NCBI RefSeq assembly: GCF_009192775.1
Contig: NZ_VTFX01000001.1
Span: 186,001-250,000 of the forward strand
Origin: Arthrobacter yangruifuii
GTDB taxonomy: Bacteria > Actinomycetota > Actinomycetes > Actinomycetales > Micrococcaceae
DNA length: 64,000 nt
Reading direction: 5' to 3'
A program made the translations under genes and the position numbers. The first letter of the stretch is position 1, and the number at the start of each line of letters is the position of its first letter. The notes under the pieces were generated by a model. The model did not search any database and had not been told where the DNA came from. It worked only from the letters and a program-made list of their open reading frames with translations. Of this stretch, positions 15,584 through 60,596 are shown piece by piece.

Positions 15584-16184
15584 TGAAGGGTGCCGCCTTT
15601 CGCAACGTACTTCTCAGTACAACTGATTTTGTGGGGAGCTCGGTATGAGCCCTGTGTGGTGGAACGGGTTGGTGCATCCGCTGACAAGTCCGGTCCGGGG
15701 GCGGGTACCGGGGCTTTATGCCCTGTCAGCCGGACCGTTCGGGTGTGCATGCGAATGACAACCATACTCTGTGACAGCTTAGCCCCGTCTGCCGGTGGAC
15801 TGCACCGGGAGAGGTTCAGAGCCCACAAGGGTCCGGGACCGGATCCCTCGTCCAAGGATTTTTGGTCTGGACGTGTCGGTCGGTTCGAGGGTGTCGAAAG
15901 CATAGTTGTTATTTGGTGGAACCGAATTTCTTAAGATCCGTAGTGTTAATAACTCCTGTGGATACTGTGGATAACTGCCTGCATCGCGGGGCCCCGGCTG
16001 TTTAAGCCTGTTGATAACCTGTGGACCCGCCGCAGCGGCTGCGGCCGAGGCTGTTGGAAACTTTTGAAGGATTCCGCGTATCCACAGGGAAGTGTGCGTA
16101 ACCACGGGTTGTCCACCGGGTTATCCACACCCTTGTCCACAAATGTTAATTCGAGCCCCTTCGGGGCCCGTTTCCCCCGCAGTC
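15584..16184. other. oriC: oriC region between dnaN and dnaA
   Basis: No gene is present. DnaA-box matches on both strands cluster at 15958-16141: TGTGGATAC (15958), perfect TGTGGATAA (15966-15974), TGTGGACCC (16020), GTATCCACA (16078), TTGTCCACC (16109), perfect TTATCCACA (16121-16129) and TTGTCCACA (16133-16141). An AT-rich stretch at about 15893-15955 next to the boxes is a plausible unwinding element. The dnaA-dnaN interval is the standard origin position in actinobacteria, so origin function is a strong inference. The dnaN promoter must also lie here. Confidence 0.88.
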
Positions 16185-17606
16185 TCAGGCCTCGCGCTGC
16201 TGCTGCTTGATCCTGTTGGTCAGTTCAGTGACCTGGTTGTAGATGGCCCGCCGCTCGGCCATCAGTTCGCGGATTTTGCGGTCGGCGTGAATGACGGTGG
16301 TGTGATCCCGTCCGCCAAGTTCCTGTCCGATCTTGGGAAGCGACATATCCGTCAGCTCCCGGCACAGGTACATGGCGATCTGCCGGGCGGTAACCAGGGT
16401 GCGGGTCCGGGACTTGCTGCACAGCTCCTCCAGGCTGATCTGGAAGTACGCGGCCGTCTGCCCAAGGATGGATGCTGCAGTGATTTCCTGCGCGCCGTCG
16501 TCGGTAATCAGGTCCTTCAGCACAATTTCGGCCAGCCCCACATCCACCTGCTGCCGGTTCAGGCTGGCGAACGCGGTGACGCGGATCAGCGCGCCTTCCA
16601 GTTCACGGATGTTGGTGGAGATTTTGGAAGCGATGTATTCCAGGACATCGTCCGGTGCGCTCAGGCTGTCGCCGATGGCCTTTTTCCGCAGAATCGCGAT
16701 ACGCGTCTCAAGTTCCGGCGGCTGCACGTCGGTCAGCAGGCCCCACTCAAAGCGCGAACGCATGCGTTCCTCGAACCCGGAAAGCTGCTTGGGCGGCAGG
16801 TCCGAGGTGATGACCACCTGCTTGTTGTGGTTGTGCAGTGCGTTGAACGTATGGAAGAACTCTTCCTGCGTTGCATCCTTGTTGGCCAGGAACTGGATGT
16901 CATCAATGAGCAGGATGTCGACGTTGCGGTACAGCTGCTTGAAGCTGGCACCCTCGTCATAGCGGATGGAGTTGATGAAGTCGTTGGTGAACTCCTCGGA
17001 ATTCACGTAACGGACGCGGATCCCGGTGTACAGGTGGCGGGCGTAGTGCCCGATGGCATGAAGCAGGTGGGTCTTGCCCAGTCCCGAGTCACCGTAGATG
17101 AACAACGGGTTGTAGGCCTTGGCCGGCGCTTCGGCCACCGCCACGGCCGCAGCATGGGCAAACCGGTTGGAGGAACCGATCACGAAGGTTTCAAAGACGT
17201 ATTTGGGGTTGAGCCGGCCGAATTCCTGGCTGGTGCTCGGCGGCGTCGGAGAGGGAGCACCGCTTTCCCCGGAAGGAACCGGGCTGGGGGCCGCCGGCTG
17301 TTCCTCGGGCTCGGGTTCTGCCTCCGCCACAGGTGTGAGATCGGAATCGATGACGAATGCACACTGGATATCAGCCTGGAATACGCCCCGGAGAACCTCG
17401 TCAAGGATGTTCTTCAGCTGGGTCTGCAGCACCTCGCGGGTGAGTTCGTTGGGAACCGCCACCAGGAGGGTGGTGCCGATCAGACCCTGGGCTTGGGCCA
17501 GCACCACGAATCCACGCTGTCGGGGAGTGACCCGGTCATCGGTCTCCAGTGTCCGAATGACCTTGCGCCAGGAGCTGCCAACATCGTTGATTTCGTCCGT
17601 ACCCAC
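16185..17606 (-). CDS. dnaA: Chromosomal replication initiator DnaA
   Basis: The 473-residue AAA+ initiator binds DnaA boxes and opens oriC. Domain I covers residues 1-90. A short Glu/Pro/Ser-rich domain II linker runs to about 128. Domain III has Walker [10 protein letters not shown] (172-180), Walker [10 protein letters not shown] and sensor motifs. Domain IV ends with the box-recognising helix-turn-helix, including [14 protein letters not shown]. The linker is much shorter than in Streptomyces. The start is GTG 17606, as in many actinobacteria. It has no gene-sized partner upstream; rpmH is divergent. Confidence 0.98.
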
Positions 17607-17939
17607 AAAAACCTCTCATGACGCCCTGCGGCTGTCTAAGAAAACCAGGGACCCCGGCGGGGATCCCGGTACTTCATCCACAGAGTTATACACAGATAGT
17701 GGATAAAGTACCCGTCGCCAAGCCTAGAGGATGATTTCCCGTGGTGGTAGCTGGAAATCCGCCGGAACGCAGGCCTGTCGGCCGTCTCACAGCGCCGCAG
17801 GACGCAGGATACCCACAGTAGTTGTCCACAGCTGTTGAAAAACGGAGGTGCACAGCCGGGGAGCGGGTATCCACAATCTGTCCACAGGCTGTCCACAGCT
17901 TCCCCGGCGGCGGCGGAATCCCGCCGGCCGTATCCCGGT
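17607..17939. promoter_or_regulatory. DnaA-box cluster upstream of dnaA
   Basis: The region between dnaA and the divergent rpmH promoter contains TCATCCACA (17674), TTATACACA (17686), AGTGGATAA (17698), ATACCCACA (17809), TTGTCCACA (17822-17830), GTATCCACA (17867), CTGTCCACA (17878) and CTGTCCACA (17889). No ORF is credible. Boxes here probably serve dnaA autoregulation and may extend the origin. Confidence 0.75.
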
Positions 17940-21361: not shown

Positions 21362-22570
21362 ATGTTGGAAAGTGAGCATGACCAGGTGAGTGCGCGTGAT
21401 TCTGCCGCAAAACGAATTCCCCCTTTTGCCGCACTCGGTTCTGCCCTGTCTGCATCATTTGGCCGAAAGCAACCGGAACTGACTGCGGTTCAAGATTCAC
21501 CCGCGATTGTTTCACGTGAAACAGCTGCAATTGCGTCGCCGCAGCCTGCACAGCCCGCGCAGCCTGAAACCAGCGTTGCGCCCGTGAAGCCTCAAAGCAG
21601 TGCTGCGACCGTGCCAGCCCCCCCAGCTATCGAAGGTGGTGTATCCGATGAAGCCGCTTCCGCGCCGGCATCGGTAGACGTTATGGATTTGATGGATGAG
21701 AGCACCCCTTTGGCCCGGGAACTGGTGAGCGAAACCCGCCGCCGTGAAAAGCTGCGCGGCCGCGTTCTGCCCCGCCCGCCCCAGACCCGGATTATGACGG
21801 TGAGTAACCAGAAGGGCGGGGTCGGGAAAACCACCACCACGGTCAATCTGGCTGCTGCTCTGGCAACCGCAGGGCAGAATGTCCTGGTCATCGACATGGA
21901 TCCGCAGGGAAACGCTTCAACCGCCCTCGGGATCGACCACCGTGCCGAGGTGGAGAGTATTTACGATGTGCTGATCGACGATCTGCCCTTGGCCGACGTA
22001 GTGGCACCGTGCCCCGACATCAGCAACCTTGTCTGCGCGCCCGCCACCATTCATTTGGCCGGTGCCGAGATTGAACTGGTGTCCCTCGTGGCCCGGGAGC
22101 AGCGGCTGAGCCGTGCACTTAGCGCTTACGCTGCTGAGCGCGAAAGGCGGGGCCTGGAACGGCTCGATTACATCTTTATCGACTGCCCGCCCAGTCTAGG
22201 ACTGCTGACCGTCAATGCCTTTGTGGCGGCCAGGGAAGTGCTCATCCCCATCCAGTGCGAGTACTACGCGCTCGAGGGACTGAGCCAGCTGCTGAAGAAC
22301 ATCGAGATGATCCAGAAGCACCTGAATGCGGATCTGGTTGTCTCTACCATTCTGCTGACCATGTATGACGGACGGACCAACCTTGCCGCACAGGTTGCAG
22401 CGGAGGTCCGTGAGCACTTCCCGGAGCAGGTGCTGAATGCTGTCGTTCCGCGCTCGGTACGGGTCTCCGAGGCACCCAGTTATCAGCAGACGGTCATCAC
22501 TTATGACCGGTCTTCCACCGGTGCCCTGTCTTACCTGGAAGCTGCAGCCGAAATAGCCCAGCGCGCCTAG
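21362..22570 (+). CDS. parA: Chromosome partitioning ATPase ParA (Soj)
   Basis: The 402-residue deviant Walker ATPase drives origin segregation with ParB. The P-loop KGGVGKTTTT is at 151-160; MDPQGNASTALG and the CPPSLGLLTVNA strand follow. An unusually long N-terminal region of about 140 residues is rich in Pro, Ala and Gln and ends in a basic helix (ETRRREKLRGR). The first ATG at 21362 has little ribosome-site signal, so a later start is possible. A perfect parS site (21508-21523) lies inside this region and is translated as IVSRETA. It is followed by parB after 105 bases. Confidence 0.93.
   Translation: MLESEHDQVSARDSAAKRIPPFAALGSALSASFGRKQPELTAVQDSPAIVSRETAAIASPQPAQPAQPETSVAPVKPQSSAATVPAPPAIEGGVSDEAASAPASVDVMDLMDESTPLARELVSETRRREKLRGRVLPRPPQTRIMTVSNQKGGVGKTTTTVNLAAALATAGQNVLVIDMDPQGNASTALGIDHRAEVESIYDVLIDDLPLADVVAPCPDISNLVCAPATIHLAGAEIELVSLVAREQRLSRALSAYAAERERRGLERLDYIFIDCPPSLGLLTVNAFVAAREVLIPIQCEYYALEGLSQLLKNIEMIQKHLNADLVVSTILLTMYDGRTNLAAQVAAEVREHFPEQVLNAVVPRSVRVSEAPSYQQTVITYDRSSTGALSYLEAAAEIAQRA
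21508..21523. other. parS site inside the parA coding sequence
   Basis: TGTTTCACGTGAAACA is a perfect 16-bp palindrome matching the ParB-binding consensus. It is read as codons for IVSRETA in the non-conserved N-terminal part of ParA. Confidence 0.95.
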
Positions 22571-22675: not shown

Positions 22676-24175
22676 ATGGCCGAGAAGCGTCGTGGTTTGG
22701 GCCGCGGTCTGGGAGCATTGATTCCCAGCAGTGCCGAGCCTGCGGAGACTGAAAGTCCGAATCAGGTAAACGTTGCTTCCGGCCGCCCGGTTGATTTGTT
22801 TTTTGCCGCAGCCGACGAGTCGCGTTCGACTTCCGGCACCGCCGGCCCCAGGCGGGGAGCGGGGATCAACAAAGACGCCCTCCGCGGCCCGGCAAAGAAG
22901 TCGACTACACGCAGTTCCAACGCGCGGCAGGCGGCAAAGACTGCTTCCTCCGAATCCGCGTCAGCCGAGGATGGCTCTAAGGTTGTCCCCAGTGCCACAC
23001 CGGAGGCCGGGGCCGCAGTGCCCGGCGTCGAAGGTGGCTCTTCCGTATCGCTCGGTGATAAGGCTCGCAAACGGGGAGGGAAGTCCTCCCCTGCTCCCGT
23101 GGAAGGGACCTCCGCCGGAGCCGCTGTAGCGCGGCAGGACGCCCCTGTAGCGCCGCAGGACGGCGCGGGAGCGCAGGGCGGGCCGAAGACTGGGGACGTA
23201 CCTGAAGCGGGCCCCAGGACGCCTGTGGACGCCTCTCCCAATACCTCCGCACCGCAGGACGAGAACAACGTGTCTGAAGTGGGTAGCCATGTGCAGCCCG
23301 GGGATGTTTCACGGGAAACGTCCACAGGGGATGCCGGCGGTACCGGGCTGGTCCAGGTTCCGGGTGCGACCTTTGCGGAACTGCCGATCGATTCCATTCA
23401 TCCGAACCGGAAGCAGCCGCGTTCAGTCTTCGATGAAGACGACATGGCCGAGTTGGTGCACTCCATCCGCGAGATCGGGGTACTGCAGCCGATTGTGGTG
23501 CGGCCTTCCCCCGAGGATGATGCCGAACACCCTTATGAGCTGGTTATGGGCGAGCGGCGGTGGCGGGCATCCCGTGAAGCCGGGCTGGATGCCGTTCCGG
23601 CGATTATCCGATCCACGCAGGACGTCGACCTCCTTCGTGACGCCCTGTTGGAGAACCTGCACCGCAGCCAGCTGAACCCGCTTGAAGAGGCAGCTGCCTA
23701 TCAGCAGCTTCTGGACGACTTCGAGTGCTCACATGAGGAGCTGGCCGAACGTATCGGCAGGTCACGGCCGCAGGTAACCAATACATTGCGGTTGCTGAAG
23801 CTTCCCCCACTGGTACAGCGGCGCTTGGCTGCTGGGATCCTATCCGCGGGGCACGCCCGTGCCCTGTTGGGGCTCGGTGATTCCGCGGAAATGGAGAAAC
23901 TGGCGCAGAAGATCGTGGCTGAGGGACTCTCGGTGCGGGCGACCGAAGAGATTGTCTCGCTCTCTGACGGTCTGCGGAAGCCGGCCAAGACGTCTAAGCC
24001 GAAGATCGGTGCGCGTCACGAACGACTTGACTACCTGGCGACGTCGCTCTCTGACCGGCTGGATACCAACGTGAAAATTACTCTCGGTGCCCGCAAGGGC
24101 AAAGTTAGCATCGAATTCGCGAGCGTCGATGACCTGAACCGGATCATGGGAGTTCTTGCTGCTCCCAGCGAGTAG
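22676..24175 (+). CDS. parB: Chromosome partitioning protein ParB
   Basis: The 499-residue CTP-dependent clamp binds parS and spreads over DNA. It begins [19 protein letters not shown], the ParA-stimulating motif of the family. A low-complexity region of about 200 residues follows. The CTPase/ParB domain runs from about 235 ([22 protein letters not shown]). The parS-binding helix-turn-helix is around 355-385 ([19 protein letters not shown]), and the dimerisation domain is C-terminal. A degenerate parS at 23305-23320 lies in the linker. The linker is far longer than in M. tuberculosis or B. subtilis. The gene ends 31 bases before a parS palindrome. Confidence 0.95.
23305..23320. other. Degenerate parS-like site inside parB
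   Basis: TGTTTCACGGGAAACG differs from the palindrome at one core position and at the final base. It is translated as VSRET in the ParB linker. Binding is possible but weaker. Confidence 0.55.
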
Positions 24176-24198
24176 CCGCTTTGCGGTATGCCTAAGAA

Positions 24199-24230
24199 AA
24201 GGCCGGTGTTTCACGTGAAACACCGGCCTT
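24199..24230. other. parS embedded in a 32-bp perfect palindrome after parB (possible terminator)
   Basis: The parS 16-mer at 24207-24222 is extended by 8 bases of perfect inverted repeat on each side (AAGGCCGG and CCGGCCTT). In RNA this is a 16-bp stem right after the parB stop with A-rich sequence before it, so it may also end parAB transcription, though no long U-run follows. Confidence 0.8.
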
Positions 24231-24581
24231 AGCATTTAACAGTCTGGTGCTTTAGCCGGCGTATTCAGGTCCGCGGCAGAGGCTGCCGGTTCAATGAGTC
24301 CTCTGCCGGTGGCGGGCTGGCGGTCGCCGTTGCAGCCAGAGTTCCGCGGCGTGGGCGTCCTGCTTCTAGTAGATGGCCCAGGTCCTAGAATGGGAGATGT
24401 TTCCGAGACATCGCATGAAACGAGATGTTCTTCGGTTGTGTATGCGTCCCCGCCATGCCCGACATCTACGCTTTGCTGTGGCGGCTAGGGGTCTTGTGAT
24501 TGTAAGAACAGAGGATGGAGTTAGCCGGGTGCTCCGCGGCAGTCCGTGACTGCTCTACTGAATGGACGTGCACGACTGCCG

Positions 24582-24597
24582 TGTTTCACGTGAAACA
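24582..24597. other. parS site
   Basis: Perfect TGTTTCACGTGAAACA palindrome, 375 bases after the previous site, in non-coding DNA. Confidence 0.95.
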
Positions 24598-24946
24598 CCC
24601 CGATTGCCGACTCGACATTCCCGGGCCGTGCAGTGCTGGAGTAGGTCAGGCAACTGGCCCGTTCGGGAGAGAAATCTACACTGGCGGCAAAGCGTCCGCA
24701 GTTCGTGCCTACCCCACGAGGCGCGCCCACCGGATCTATGAAATCCGCGGCCCGATGTGACTGGCTGTGTGGCTCCGGGACTACCCAGCCAGCCAGACGG
24801 CAGGCCCGACTCCGTGCTTTCGGCCCTGACTCTTCAGTGGCCTCGCATAGCGGGCATCGCAAACGCCGGTAGTGCGCCGGCGTTCTTGGAAAGGGCGTCG
24901 CGTTGGATGATGAACGAGCCTTTCTTCTCGCGCCAGCAAGCAGCAT

Positions 24947-24962
24947 CGTTTCACGTGAAACA
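24947..24962. other. parS site
   Basis: CGTTTCACGTGAAACA: perfect 14-bp core with one outer mismatch, 365 bases after the previous site. Flanks AGCAG and CTGCT extend the symmetry. Confidence 0.92.
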
Positions 24963-25296
24963 GGCTGCTATGAGCAGTAATGACGAAGGCAGTAGAGAAA
25001 ACAGCACAGAATAATCGACACGTCGACGGACAAACAGCAGCGTTGACCTGCCCCGCTGCACCGGCATGGTGTTGCGTCGCGATATGACTCCGGCGATCGC
25101 AGCGCAGCCATATCTGGCGGACACTGCATCTAGGGTTTCTGACATAGGGAGTGAGCATCGTATTCATGAGAATAGGACCCCCAGCGCCTTTCGAGCGCGG
25201 TTAGTGGCTTCTTTCAACGGTCTGGGTAGGGCTCAACCTAGGGAACCAGGGACAAATCTCCACTTGGTGCGCGGGGAAAGACCGCTACCGCCGCAG

Positions 25297-25312
25297 TGTT
25301 TCACGTGAAACG
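25297..25312. other. parS site
   Basis: TGTTTCACGTGAAACG: perfect 14-bp core, 350 bases after the previous site. Confidence 0.92.
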
Positions 25313-25789
25313 GCTCCGCATCTCCGGCACCACGCGTCTGCTTGCCGTCAATAGTCCCGACTTACCGATGCCAGCTGTCTCGCCGCAATAATCCGGAAGT
25401 CGCTAGTCCATCTCCGTGCAGCCGCCAGGCCCTGAGAGTTTACGGGCGCAAATAGCCGGCCGGCTGGTTGTCTATCTGGACCGGCCTTCCGGAAGAACAG
25501 GTCGTTATGTGGGGCGCACATGAACCGCGTCCGATCTCTATCCGCCCCAACCAGGTTCTGGGGTGAGTGCGTTTCACTAGCCCGTGGCCACTCCTGTACG
25601 GGCGTGTGGATGACATGGTACCCCTGCGCACGGTAGTTCCGCATGGGTACATGATCGGTGGCGACCTGTTCTGAACTCCCGTGGGCTGCTCCCGTGCGAG
25701 CCGGATCGGTGCCCGTCATGAGGCGACTCGTACGAAGCGGTCTGGTTTGAGGGCTCCGATCGGTCCTAGAGAGTTGGTCCCGGGGCGTG

Positions 25790-25805
25790 TGTTTCACGTG
25801 AAACG
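25790..25805. other. parS site
   Basis: TGTTTCACGTGAAACG: perfect 14-bp core, 493 bases after the previous site. GGGCG before and CGCCC after give partial extended symmetry. Confidence 0.92.
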
Positions 25806-26113
25806 CCCTGGACTCGTGCGGGGCCCTTCGCCGACAGGCCAGGCAAATTATGAATACGAGCACGCGAGGTAGCCAACCCATCCGCTCCAGTGAGTGAAGG
25901 CGGGCACTCACGACACGACCTCGGTGAATTGGCTTCAGTTTATTAGGGTCCCTTCGCTGTTAGCAAGGCGACTATCGCCGCACTCCGCCGTGGTACCTGA
26001 TTGGCCCGTGTACCGGGCGCGGGCCGCAGGGTAATGCGCAGAGAGCCAACTCTGGCGGCACCCCGTTCAATACCCATCGGCAGTCCGGCTCGGACGGACG
26101 ACCTGAGACGTAC

Positions 26114-26129
26114 TGTTTCACGTGAAACG
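26114..26129. other. parS site
   Basis: TGTTTCACGTGAAACG: perfect 14-bp core, 324 bases after the previous site. Confidence 0.92.
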
Positions 26130-26490
26130 CAGCCATGCCCAGGACTGGCGCAGCACTGGACAAGGAGCGACAAGCTTTAGCGTGGCTTAGCTGAATCGCA
26201 GGATTCAACCGTTGTGGTCCCTGACGGACATTGCTGATCCTGCAGAAGACGGGCCGCGGAGGATCTTCCGGCGTCGGACCTGGCATCTGGCAACCCAAAT
26301 TTCACCACCTGCCAAGGCAGCCTGGACGTGGTCGGACAACGCTCACCGTAGGTGGCGGAGGTGGGCGCCGTGGGATCACAGCAAGCGGGCTTCCAGCGTT
26401 CCCACGTTCGTCATTCGAAGGGCACATACGATTTTGTCAGGGGGACCCATCTTTTTCAGGGTGTCCCATCACAGTCCTGGAGGAATGCAC

Positions 26491-26524
26491 GCGGGCAAGC
26501 CCCTGCGGGCAAGCCCCTGCGGGT
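26491..26524. repeat. Short tandem repeat, 14-bp unit
   Basis: GCGGGCAAGCCCCT occurs twice in direct tandem (26491-26504, 26505-26518), followed by a partial third copy. Each unit also contains the small inverted repeat GGGC/GCCC. Confidence 0.8.
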
Positions 26525-26840
26525 GGCACTTGTCGTTATCGTGGTTTGTTGTTGAGGAATGCATCCTTGCGTAGTTGACTCGCCGAAGGCACCTCGCCGC
26601 CGGGCGGGTGGATCAGTCTCTGTATGCAAGGAAGGGGCACAGCTGCGCTACGGTTGCGGCAGTCCAGAATCAGAGGAATGTTTAGGGATTAGCTGGCCCG
26701 CCCGCATCAGGGACCGAGTGTTTCTTGAGCTGCACTCTCAGCGTCCAACGGCGCAGCTGTATTGGCCACGCTGGCCAGGAAATTTCAGAGGTGCCACTCG
26801 GGCGCATCGCCACCGCACCCGATGGTGTGCGTATTCCTGC

Positions 26841-26927
26841 CCTGCCCTGGTGAGGCCTGCCTTGCCCCGCCTTGGTGAGGCCTGCCCTGCCCCGCCTGGC
26901 CAGGGCAGGGCAGGGCAGGGCGGGGGA
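26841..26927. repeat. GC-rich repeat block with tandem 25-mers and an inverted arm
   Basis: Two adjacent 25-bp copies (26848-26872 and 26873-26897, one difference) are followed by a CAGGGCAGGG tract (26900-26925), which is the inverse complement of the CCCTGCCC motifs before it. The block could form a long hairpin or slipped structures. Confidence 0.8.
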
Positions 26928-27560
26928 CGAGGCACACCTCGCTGTGAACAATGGGGGCTGGGTTCCGCATTTGTCCGCCTCCCACATCACGCCCGCTGCG
27001 CGCCTCCCGCCGAAGGCTCGGGGCAGGTACGGCGGCAGCGCCTCGTCCCAGTTGTAGCTGCACATCGATGCACCTATTCCCGGCCACCTGCGGCTGCCCC
27101 GCGGACAAGGACACATCAAGGCCGCCCCACAGGAACGACGCTGCCGGCGGCACCCCTTTACCAGCCGTCCGTACGTGCTCCCGGTGCATTCTTCGGATTT
27201 TTGCCTGCGTGGGCGGGGCCGGCGGCACAACAGGGAACGACGGAGTTAGGACTCCTGCTTCCGGAACAACGCCGCAACCGGCCGACGGCTTCCCGTGTCT
27301 CAAATGAGTATCAGTGCCGACAGTGCGCCGGCATGGGGCCAGGGGCAGGGTGGAAGCGGCTGCAGATACTCGTGTGACGGTATGCGAATGAAGGAGCACA
27401 GGCGAAGTGTCCGGCAACGCCGCCTATGCGCCCTGACGCCGGAAGCAGACCGGAACGGGCTACTGGAGGGGCACCAGACCCTCTATAACAATTGCAGTGG
27501 GTTGGATTTAGACACCTAGGTCAGACATTTTCGCTCGCCGACCGTTCTTTCCGAGTCAAC

Positions 27561-27576
27561 TGTTTCACGTGAAACG
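27561..27576. other. parS site
   Basis: TGTTTCACGTGAAACG: perfect 14-bp core. It stands apart, 1447 bases after the previous site and about 1 kb from the cwlM 3' end. Confidence 0.92.
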
Positions 27577-28597
27577 CTGAGGGAAGACGCCTGCAGGTGC
27601 TCGTAGGCATCGCTGAACGACTGTAGCCGAGGGGCGAAAACGGTGGGCCCGGTAGGCCGCCGGTGGGCACGGTTGCGTCGAGGTGCAACGGTGGCACGAG
27701 TCGGTGAAGGGTAGTGGACGCGTCGTCCAACTCGTAGGGAATCCCTCGCCCACCCAGTGCTGGTATCCGCAAGGTTGGATGCTCGGCCCACGCGACATCG
27801 AAGAGGGCGCCGTCAGGTCTACCCTCTCAAAGAGGGGCATCGTCAGTTCTACCAGCTCTGCGGGAGTACCGACGGAGACGGGCCTCAGCGAAGGGGCTGG
27901 GCCGCGGCGGTTCCGCCCAGCCCGAGTGCTTCCCCAATGAGGCTTTCGCCTCCGCTGTACCCCAGGGCGTAGGAGCTTCAGGGTGCCGGAAAGCTTTGTG
28001 GGAAACCCGGAGACGGGCGGCCGCAGTGCACGGAACCATTGCCCGGAAACGCCGGAAACGCCGAACACCAAACTCCTTCTCGTGCATCCTGCACGTCGCC
28101 ATGGCTGCCGCGAAAGTGGTTGCGGATGCGGCGGAGGGGATTGCCGGCCGCTCAATCGTCATGGCCATCTGCAGTGTGGAGGTAGGCCGGCAATGCTGCG
28201 GCGTACCTGTTCATCCTGCAGGTTGCCGTTCTGCAGGTCTGCCCGGCAACCGGTCCTTCACCACAAGAGCCGCCATTGAAGCGGTGCAGACCCCGGTGAG
28301 CGACCCACGCTGCAGCACTCGTGACGGGAGCCCAGCCGGATAGCGCCGGAACGGAGCAAGGTATCGGCGTCAGCTTCAAAGGAGGTCCGACCTTCAGATA
28401 ATGCTGCGCCAACAACCGCTAAGGGTTGGAATCCGGTGTAATCCTGCCAGCCGATTGGTTCCCCGAGACGGGAATCGTGTCTTTGCCCATGCCCATGCCC
28501 GGAACGGCGGCCGGAGCACGGCAGGCGCAGGGATTCATCAGCGCCCTCAATTCGTCCTGACGAAACGGGGCATGAGGGCATCCACGATGCAGGAAAC

Positions 28598-29791
28598 CTA
28601 CAGTCCGGAAACCCGCCGGGCAGCCGGCTCTTCCCTCGGGTTGAACTTCAGCACGTCATCGAGGGCCAGGGTCCCCGTGGGCTGGTCTTCCTCTTCCAGC
28701 AGATACAGCCGCTGGATTCCGATCACGATGGAATCGGCAACCGTCTGGCGGAAGACCGGATCGGCAAGGCGCTCGGCGTCGTGCGCGTTGCTGAGATAGC
28801 CCAGGTCGAGCCCCACGGAGGGTACGCCGGGGACCTTCAAGGTGTCCCAGGTCCGGGCATGGACGCCCAGATTGTCCAGGTCGGTACGGGCACCGAGTTC
28901 CTTCAGCAACAGGACAGCGGCACGGTGGCCGATGGGGGACCGCGCCTCGCCGGTGCCCGGAAGGCCCCAGTAGTAGGCGGCCATGCCGGAGGCTGCCTGC
29001 TGGTCCAGCCAGTCACAGTGGATGTCCAGATTCAGGCTGGGAGTGTTCCGGCGTGACCCCGGCTCGCGCAGCAAATCGGGCTGCTGGGGAACCAGACGGG
29101 CACCGAACTCCCGCAGGATGCGTTCAACGCGCCCCGCAATGTCCGTGGTGACCAGCTGCTCGGTCAGCGGTTCCCCGCTGAGGCGCTCCACGGCGTGCGG
29201 GGACTGCAGCCGGGACCGGCCGATGTTAACGGAAATGACTCGCCCGCGCAGGGCTGCCGTGGAACGGTCCAGCCGCTCGTAGTCACGCAGGGCGAAGGCC
29301 TGGCTGGGTGTAATGGCGCGGTTCACCCGGGACATCGCCTGCATGGTGTCACCGTCGCAGACACCGCTGCCGGGCAGGCCGAGGTTCTGCTGCAGCTCGG
29401 CCACGGCGTAACGGGTACGCACGCCGAAACTGCCGTCAATATGACCGTAATAGAAGCCCAGGTGGGATAGGTGCCGCTGCAGTTCGGCGACGTCGTCGCC
29501 CCGCAGCTGCCCGCCCTCGACGAAGCTAAGGGTACGGTCTCCGAACCGGAATTGCGCCTCGGACAGCGCACGCTGGGTGTCCGGACCGGCAACGCCGTCA
29601 ACAATCAGGCCGCGGCTCTGCTGGAACGCACGGACCGCGGCGTCCACATGGTCATCAAAGATCGTCGGATCATTTACGGCGTCGGGTGCCAGGTAGGACA
29701 GGGTGACGCCAGCGCGCAGCAACGCTTCACGAAGCGTCACTACGCGCCGGCTGGCATCCAGCCTTCGCAGGCTCTCACCATGCACAGTCAT
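28598..29791 (-). CDS. cwlM: CwlM-type degenerate N-acetylmuramoyl-L-alanine amidase (regulator of peptidoglycan synthesis)
   Basis: The 397-residue protein has two peptidoglycan-binding-type modules (about 45-80 and 105-155) and an Amidase_3 fold (about 183-365). It lacks a signal peptide, so it is cytoplasmic. The first zinc-His motif of active amidases (DPGHGG) reads VNIGRSR here (Arg192 in place of His). The catalytic Glu before GFLSN is Asp329 in GLDLGYLSN; His258 is kept. This matches CwlM, which in mycobacteria is not a working hydrolase: PknB-phosphorylated CwlM stimulates MurA and the unphosphorylated form contacts MurJ. Thr372 and Thr374 near the C terminus are candidate phosphosites (inference). 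It lies beside trxA and parB, the M. tuberculosis order. Confidence 0.88.
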   Translation of the reverse strand: MTVHGESLRRLDASRRVVTLREALLRAGVTLSYLAPDAVNDPTIFDDHVDAAVRAFQQSRGLIVDGVAGPDTQRALSEAQFRFGDRTLSFVEGGQLRGDDVAELQRHLSHLGFYYGHIDGSFGVRTRYAVAELQQNLGLPGSGVCDGDTMQAMSRVNRAITPSQAFALRDYERLDRSTAALRGRVISVNIGRSRLQSPHAVERLSGEPLTEQLVTTDIAGRVERILREFGARLVPQQPDLLREPGSRRNTPSLNLDIHCDWLDQQAASGMAAYYWGLPGTGEARSPIGHRAAVLLLKELGARTDLDNLGVHARTWDTLKVPGVPSVGLDLGYLSNAHDAERLADPVFRQTVADSIVIGIQRLYLLEEEDQPTGTLALDDVLKFNPREEPAARRVSGL

Positions 29792-29797
29792 TGATAT

Positions 29798-30124
29798 TTA
29801 CTTCAGGAAAGCCGCGAATTCCTGCTCCAGGACCTGCTTCGGCTTGGCGCCGATGGACGTCGCCGCAACCTTACCGTCCTGGAACACGTAGACGGCCGGA
29901 ATGGAAGTGATGCCGTACTGGGCTGCGATCGCGGGGTTTTCGTCCACGTTCACCTTCACCACATCGACCTTGTCGCTGTACTGAGCCGCAATGTCGTCGA
30001 GGATGGGGGACAGCATGCGGCACGGACCGCACCATTCGGCCCAGAAATCCACGATGACCGGCTTGTTGGCGGTCAGGACGTCGGTGCCGAAGGAAGCATC
30101 GGTTACTGCTTTTGCACTGCTCAT
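29798..30124 (-). CDS. trxA: Thioredoxin
   Basis: The 108-residue cytoplasmic thioredoxin has the active site WAEWCGPCRM and the cis-Pro loop TSIPAVYVF. It reduces protein disulfides and is itself reduced by the adjacent thioredoxin reductase. ATG 30124 is preceded by AAGGAG nine bases upstream; the slightly longer frame to 30133 starts inside that ribosome site. It lies 27 bases after trxB on the same strand, so they form an operon. Confidence 0.96.
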   Translation of the reverse strand: MSSAKAVTDASFGTDVLTANKPVIVDFWAEWCGPCRMLSPILDDIAAQYSDKVDVVKVNVDENPAIAAQYGITSIPAVYVFQDGKVAATSIGAKPKQVLEQEFAAFLK

Positions 30125-30151
30125 TTTTTGCACTCCTTATGAAGAACGGGA

Positions 30152-60326: not shown

Positions 60327-60596
60327 CAATCCACAGACTCGGGACCGGGATTGTGGATATCCGGAGGGCCAGGTGTGGATTTCGCCACCCTTAGGCGTGT
60401 TTTTGCCGCCTGTCAACACGGCGCCAAGGGCCGGGCGTGGCGGAAAAATACTTTGTTTGCACAGGTGTGGACAAGCATTTGCCCTAGTCAGAGCCGTATT
60501 TGTGGAAAAACCCAAGATTTATCCACATGCTTATACCCAGCCTGTGCACAAGACACGCCGCGTTATCCACATACTGTCCACAGGAGCTGTGGATAA
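60327..60596. promoter_or_regulatory. DnaA-box cluster upstream of dnaB
   Basis: No gene lies between the rplI terminator and dnaB (about 510 bases). Boxes on both strands include CAATCCACA (60327), TGTGGATAT (60352), TGTGGATTT (60374), TGTGGACAA (60466-60474), TGTGGAAAA (60501), perfect TTATCCACA (60519-60527, 60563-60571), CTGTCCACA (60574) and TGTGGATAA (60588-60596). Three are perfect TTATCCACA-type and one is a perfect TTGTCCACA-type. The last five lie within 100 bases, about 190 bases before the dnaB start. Binding by DnaA is inferred from sequence. Confidence 0.75.

Follow-up and report, generated by a model that had tools for sequence, protein, structure and literature searches.

An array of parS sites in a largely gene-free interval beside parB of Arthrobacter yangruifuii, a probable ParB-loading centromere

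Introduction

ParB is a cytidine triphosphate (CTP)-dependent sliding clamp, and SMC loads at parS. Corynebacterium glutamicum has a cluster of ten parS sites that spans 35 kb, lies 73 kb from oriC and has nine of the ten sites in intergenic DNA (PMC7083940), Myxococcus xanthus has 22 parS sites, covered by a 3.1-kb probe, about 4 kb from parA (PMC3899335), and the main parS sites of Bacillus subtilis extend over about 60 kb (PMC8357415). The clustering of strong parS sites has been proposed to limit SMC collisions (PMC8357415), and transcription has been suggested to influence the spreading of ParB (PMC5815017). Here we report a compact parS array beside the parAB genes of Arthrobacter yangruifuii (Micrococcaceae), located in a stretch of 64,000 bp (C1:186001-250000; hereafter the window, whose positions are used throughout) of a genome of 3.54 Mb assembled into 9 contigs.

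Like the cluster of C. glutamicum, from which ParB and SMC work, it is an actinobacterial parS cluster, but its seven sites lie within 3.4 kb of a single interval beside parB that is free of intact genes, rather than across 35 kb (PMC7083940). The M. xanthus array is similarly compact, but denser, of another consensus and upstream of parA (PMC3899335). The SMC-collision rationale from B. subtilis would suit the compact array described here, although the main sites of that species are far more dispersed (PMC8357415).

Results

The interval between parB and the next called gene (24176-28597) contains seven parS sites, at 24207-24222, 24582-24597, 24947-24962, 25297-25312, 25790-25805, 26114-26129 and 27561-27576 (sites 1 to 7). 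All have the perfect core GTTTCACGTGAAAC, starting at 24208, 24583, 24948, 25298, 25791, 26115 and 27562, respectively, and are spaced 375, 365, 350, 493, 324 and 1447 bp apart. Two more sites lie in frame within genes: a perfect one in parA (21508-21523, translated as V-S-R-E-T), matched in most relatives by a perfect site in a comparable position, and a degenerate one in parB (23305-23320; two mismatches to the 16-mer, one to the core), a gene that contains a perfect parS in many relatives. A previous reading of the letters alone (the sequence-only reading) had listed the seven perfect cores with these spacings and counted nine sites within 6.1 kb; a core search confirmed both, the nine sites spanning 6.07 kb. 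At up to three mismatches to the 16-mer, nine sites were seen in the window against 0.11 expected by chance, and the window contains every perfect 14-bp core of the genome, eight in total (seven in the interval, one in parA). The one-mismatch core of the parB site recurs once in the genome, isolated and outside the window (C6:15569-15582).

The adjacent genes parA (21362-22570, plus strand) and parB (22676-24175, plus strand) lie near dnaN, yidC, rsmG and two groups of DnaA boxes (15957-16141 and 17674-17897), and the genome also encodes ScpA. The product of parB is a ParB/Spo0J-type partition protein (TIGR00180, 195.6 bits against a cut-off of 58.45). That of parA matched ParA-type ATPases, none above its cut-off among the matches listed (25 of 28), and direct reading revealed the motif KGGVGKTT, which we take to be that of ParA-type ATPases. 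With parA and parB adjacent near the presumed oriC and several parS sites close by, the locus has the layout of a chromosomal ParABS system with a Spo0J-like ParB.

Among 294 gaps between called genes in 430 kb of the contig, none is larger than this interval, with its 4,422 bp; the median gap is 76 bp, and the second largest, of 1,490 bp, contains open reading frames (ORFs) of 124 and 132 amino acids that the gene caller rejected. None of the 32 ORFs of at least 60 amino acids in 24176-28597 had coding-like codon use (top score -5.8; best of shuffled sequences -9.0 ± 5.2), and the number and length of ORFs were the same as in shuffles. The longest ORFs, some of them probably antisense (e.g. 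16092-17621, plus strand), served to train the codon model, and retraining based on scores gave the same outcome. No ORF of the interval passed a conservation test, and an Rfam search over 20-32 kb gave no match at the gathering score; of six matches at E values up to 1, all below that score, four fall on a GC-rich repeat (26856-26926). This 25-bp tandem and inverted repeat (26836-26925) lies in the site-free spacer, and the corresponding stretch of Arthrobacter zhaoxinii (locus L005) is shorter. A scan for transcription signals found two promoter-like sites against 1.0 ± 1.0 in shuffles. The non-coding array domain proper extends from 24176 to 27430, with codon scores and ORF statistics like those of shuffles; it has six parS sites in its first 1.95 kb, followed by about 1.3 kb without a site. 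Transcription units converge on the array, parAB reading rightwards and trxBA-amidase leftwards.

The interval was compared among 81 loci, consisting of the window and 80 named loci (the best 80 of 233 matches); A. zhaoxinii is the top-ranked named relative by ParB and is joined with the window in a ParA/ParB/TrxB tree of 61 loci (support 89). Both borders (parB and the amidase or trxA) are present in 62 of the 81 loci; many of the others are truncated by a contig end, and L012, whose amidase match is cut, was excluded manually. The related loci are not independent, and a reduced set of 25 was picked by hand. At a cut-off of our choice, the interval measures at least 1.4 kb in 58 of the 62 loci (hereafter deserts; range 1.46-9.7 kb, median 5.0 kb). 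Deserts contain a median of seven sites of the form GTTNCACGTGNAAC, with five to nine in 48 of the 58, a count independent of interval length (Spearman 0.10, P 0.44). Their 292 kb hold 350 perfect parS sites against 0.0006 expected; 42 of the 58 lack any coding-like ORF, and the G + C content is lower than that of the flanks in 45. Perfect parS sites occur in 190 of 197 sampled genomes of the family. The arrays of L021, L023, L031, L032, L035 and L039 consist mostly of half-changed sites (GTTCCACGTGAAAC or GTTTCACGTGGAAC), while the parA site is perfect; we therefore rejected L021, L023, L031, L032 and L039, which have few perfect sites, as counter-examples. This comparison, which the sequence-only reading had proposed, supports a parS domain next to parB that is for the most part non-coding. 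Conserved coding sequences or structured RNAs in the spacers, named there as an argument against a pure centromere, were not found in the interval by Rfam or the conservation test, although some relatives do have ORFs between sites.

Spacers were aligned globally, a procedure that gives an identity of about 0.43-0.46 even where they no longer match. In all nine locus pairs, spacer identity was below that of fourfold degenerate sites: 0.507 against 0.645 for the window and L005 (5 of 6 sites aligned, all five of L005 among them), 0.556 against 0.801 for L046-L047 (7 of 8), 0.482 against 0.737 for L006-L007 (6 of 6), 0.494 against 0.725 for L075-L083 (8 of 10), 0.455 against 0.778 for L046-L081, 0.446 against 0.794 for L047-L081 and 0.430 against 0.637 for L006-L008, and, in two stretches that include coding-like ORFs, 0.688 against 0.805 for L021-L031 (11 of 12) and 0.896 against 0.921 for L059-L061 (5 of 5). 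The spacers of the window and L005 are no more similar than shuffled sequence. Fourfold sites may themselves be selected for codon use, and a turnover faster than that of silent sites is therefore no proof of raised mutation. These alignments support the earlier impression that the spacers drift freely and indicate rapid change in the DNA that separates the parS points, which themselves are kept.

Gaps between sites are more even than expected: the mean coefficient of variation (CV) in 54 arrays with five or more sites was 0.617 against 0.810 ± 0.034 for uniform placement (0 of 1000 simulations as low), and 0.609 against 0.808 in the reduced set of 25 (0 of 5000). Nevertheless, 36 of 358 gaps are shorter than 120 bp, and the data suggest a weak pressure to spread the sites, not a ruler. 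Helical phasing was rejected, none being found at 10-11 bp. Spacer length as a selected trait was set aside, since close pairs are roughly similar and more distant relatives differ, which does not separate it from plain inheritance. The suggestion that spacing is perhaps selected thus stands as far as the family-wide evenness goes, while lengths are roughly kept among near relatives only.

Site 1 is the centre of a perfect 32-nt palindrome just 3' of the parB stop (24199-24230, plus strand), which forms a terminator-like hairpin (predicted fold -26.1 kcal/mol, z -5.3). It scores 50.4 bits with covariance model R1, of which the window is itself a row; the same model gives a bare parS 18.5 bits. 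Of the 81 loci, 49 have a parS no more than 60 bp after the parB stop, one of them with two, which makes 50 such first sites. The arms extend strictly by at least 5 bp in 36 of the 50 first sites; of the other downstream sites, 10 of 444 do so, and of the upstream sites, none of 151. In a gap-free alignment of 49 first sites (48 distinct), 89.3% of cells are paired, compared with 64.8 ± 1.2% in shuffles (0 of 500 as high) and 38-51% in slid controls; cells with changes on both sides number 211 against 72, and the covariation score is 0.618 against 0.172. Five of the 17 pairs belong to the parS core and are nearly invariant. That 12 of 12 arm pairs change on both sides was discarded as evidence, since 476 of 500 shuffles reach this value. 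The hairpin after the stop is thus stable and kept by compensatory change, as expected of an intrinsic terminator. A T-run follows the stem in 35% of the 49 first sites against 3.6% of the 444 others. In the window, the T-run is weak on the plus strand and consists of four T on the minus strand, and the hairpin was not among the terminators predicted by the scan; the better run on the minus strand suggests that the hairpin may also shield parB from antisense transcription.

At E values of 0.001 or less, the hairpin model matched 50 of 149 genomes of the order, with at most 40 candidates scored per genome under strict filters; the 99 genomes without a match include some of the same family. Among 30 returned loci of about 3 kb each, the hairpin lies at most 63 bp after parB in five, including the window, and a parA match is present in 16 others. 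In other families of the order (L107, L112, L114, L116, L119 and others), a hairpin-embedded parS was observed about 0.8-1.3 kb from a parA match. Long strict arms are also present in L037 and L048, both without a desert, so that the hairpin seems more widespread than the desert.

A k-mer test of the 42 deserts without coding-like ORFs yielded one strong second motif, TTATCCACA, the DnaA box (57 against 0.6 expected, in 25 deserts), and a weaker AT-rich hexamer, AATATT. At least two perfect boxes occur in the interval of 27 loci, namely all 26 of one branch of the tree (support 97), comprising Pseudarthrobacter, Paenarthrobacter and many named Arthrobacter, and L079 (Sinomonas). In 23 of the 27 (L034, L038, L041, L042, L046, L047 and 17 more), one mid-interval parS is preceded by boxes at 104-130 bp and followed by boxes at 214-286 bp, with little else conserved. 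The desert of the window contains no perfect box and two with one mismatch, and its clade lacks the module. In 14 loci of that clade (46.4 kb, ends set by hand), no strong second shared motif emerged, the top 8- to 10-mers occurring in at most 7 of 14 and a few 7-mers in 11-12 of 14 (z 4-5). Outside the dnaA-dnaN region, the window has DnaA-box clusters at 2391-2608 and 60352-60596, with three and four perfect boxes, respectively, plus near matches; these are possible DnaA sinks.

The right end of the interval contains a decayed AllG-like gene, a relative of PF06545 proteins (27519-28494, minus strand; ends approximate). The DNA of 27431-28494 is 75-89% identical to L005; pieces of the remnant are spread over all three minus-strand frames, with internal stops, and the longest reading in one frame contains six. 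Relative to L005-L008, an 82-bp segment (28087-28168, plus strand) is inverted, with 89% identity to the opposite strand of L005, and around it the remnant is about 260 bp shorter than its L005 counterpart. An AllG-family gene (PF06545) is intact in L005 and L008. Between the array and AllG, L005-L008 also have genes for a major facilitator superfamily (MFS) transporter and a winged-helix regulator (Pfam on L005; tblastn), the former split into two pieces in L007; tblastn at E values up to 1 found no trace of either L005 gene in the window. The 3' end of the remnant carries site 7, and a perfect parS occupies the corresponding place in L005-L008; with the site intact and the gene wrecked, parS 7 has outlasted the gene. 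The statement that the interval holds no credible gene therefore applies to intact genes: from 24176 to about 27430 there is no intact or conserved gene, which is not so in all relatives, whereas about 27.5-28.5 kb is gene-derived DNA.

The right border is a peptidoglycan amidase gene convergent with parB (28598-29791, minus strand; Amidase_3 and two PG_binding_1 stretches), which the sequence-only reading took to be cwlM-like. The thioredoxin gene trxA (29798-30133, minus strand; TIGR01068) served as the border in relatives without an amidase match.

Discussion

The number, conservation and setting of the sites argue that the interval is very probably a dedicated ParB-loading centromere, the cis-acting component of chromosomal ParABS, placed between convergent transcription units. 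The array lies 6-12 kb from the presumed oriC and comprises about 3.2 kb of non-coding DNA. As first described, a dedicated centromere block covered the whole interval; a mostly non-coding parS domain with drifting spacers beside parB stands, and the right quarter is instead a gene remnant.

Several observations weigh against this reading. The interval measures just 100-388 bp in four of the 62 loci, L037 (Kocuria), L025 and L048 (Zhihengliuella) and L071 (Psychromicrobium), where most parS sites are upstream of the parB stop; a desert is therefore not required for ParABS. Coding-like or conserved ORFs stand between sites in L005-L008, L021, L031, L058, L059, L061, L072 and L074, so gene-freeness is not absolute. 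In three of the nine pairs (L046-L081, L047-L081 and L006-L008), the sites that aligned number just 2 of 8, 4 of 7 and 2 of 6, although site positions are unsure there because the spacers are unalignable. The fairly even ladder first described is seen in the first six sites of the window, a subset chosen post hoc (CV 0.153, P 0.0013), whereas the seven together are not even (CV 0.717, P 0.39). Finally, the hairpin site is not universal, since 32 of the 81 loci lack a parS at 60 bp or less from the parB stop.

Alternatively, the interval could be a gene graveyard, a convergent spot tolerant of insertions in which the parS sites are incidental to idle DNA. The decayed AllG-like gene, the MFS and regulator genes that left no trace in the window and the different coding-like ORFs in the intervals of L012, L013 and L015 would all fit such a history. 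However, the main array of L005-L015 lies to the left of where the coding-like ORFs begin, no such ORF is present in 34 of the 49 intervals that measure 3.5 kb or more, and 350 perfect sites are far beyond chance; we consider this explanation unlikely. Still less credible, to the point of being very improbable, is that the spacers encode unrecognised small proteins or structured RNAs. The tests covered families from curated collections and ORFs no shorter than 50-60 amino acids, and a few of the relatives' interval ORFs are common to other loci, but Rfam gave no match at the gathering score on 20-32 kb, no ORF of the window's interval passed the conservation test, its spacers resemble those of L005 no more than shuffled sequence does, and most deserts are lower in G + C than their flanks.

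For the hairpin, the chances appear even that it is a mere terminator grown around a parS, with termination and ParB unlinked. The palindrome offers a ready hairpin core, and comparable hairpin-embedded parS sites are present close to parA in other members of the order; the point on the other side, an indirect one, is that long arms are specific to first sites.

If the interval is a ParB-loading centromere, each parS would load ParB dimers, which would close into CTP-dependent clamps and then slide into the spacers, whose sequence would matter solely as unobstructed length. Clustered sites would concentrate loading at one place, and the ParB-loaded region would be moved by ParA and serve as the entry point for SMC-ScpAB. 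RNA polymerase would be kept out by the convergent borders together with the terminator-like hairpin around parS, so that the sliding of clamps is undisturbed. In the light of the SMC-collision proposal (PMC8357415) and the suggested effect of transcription on spreading (PMC5815017), a compact array in transcription-free convergent DNA would be a plausible optimum.

Clusters of DnaA boxes are known from datA-like DnaA sinks. The module of the sister clade resembles such sinks in that its boxes are grouped away from those of dnaA-dnaN, a likeness that we offer as a lead only, but differs in that the boxes bracket a parS inside a ParB array, and none is present in the desert of the window. It hints at a DnaA sink or regulator sited in the centromere. 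Among the matches listed in open-licence PubMed Central, we found no Arthrobacter description of a parS in a terminator hairpin or of a parS-DnaA-box module, and earlier notice of either is possible.

More tentatively, and with less confidence than for a ParB-loading role, these sequence comparisons might point to a bacterial regional centromere: a selected, transcription-free domain of several kilobases with mostly five to nine loading points and spacers that turn over faster than silent sites, one border being a terminator tipped by a ParB site and one large clade having a DnaA-box module that would join the control of replication start and segregation. Such a gene-free array, which exists in dozens of natural variants, would provide a test case for whether ParB clamps need a transcription-free track and for the roles of site number and spacing, and the parS hairpin and the parS-DnaA-box module would offer testable links among segregation, transcription and replication control.

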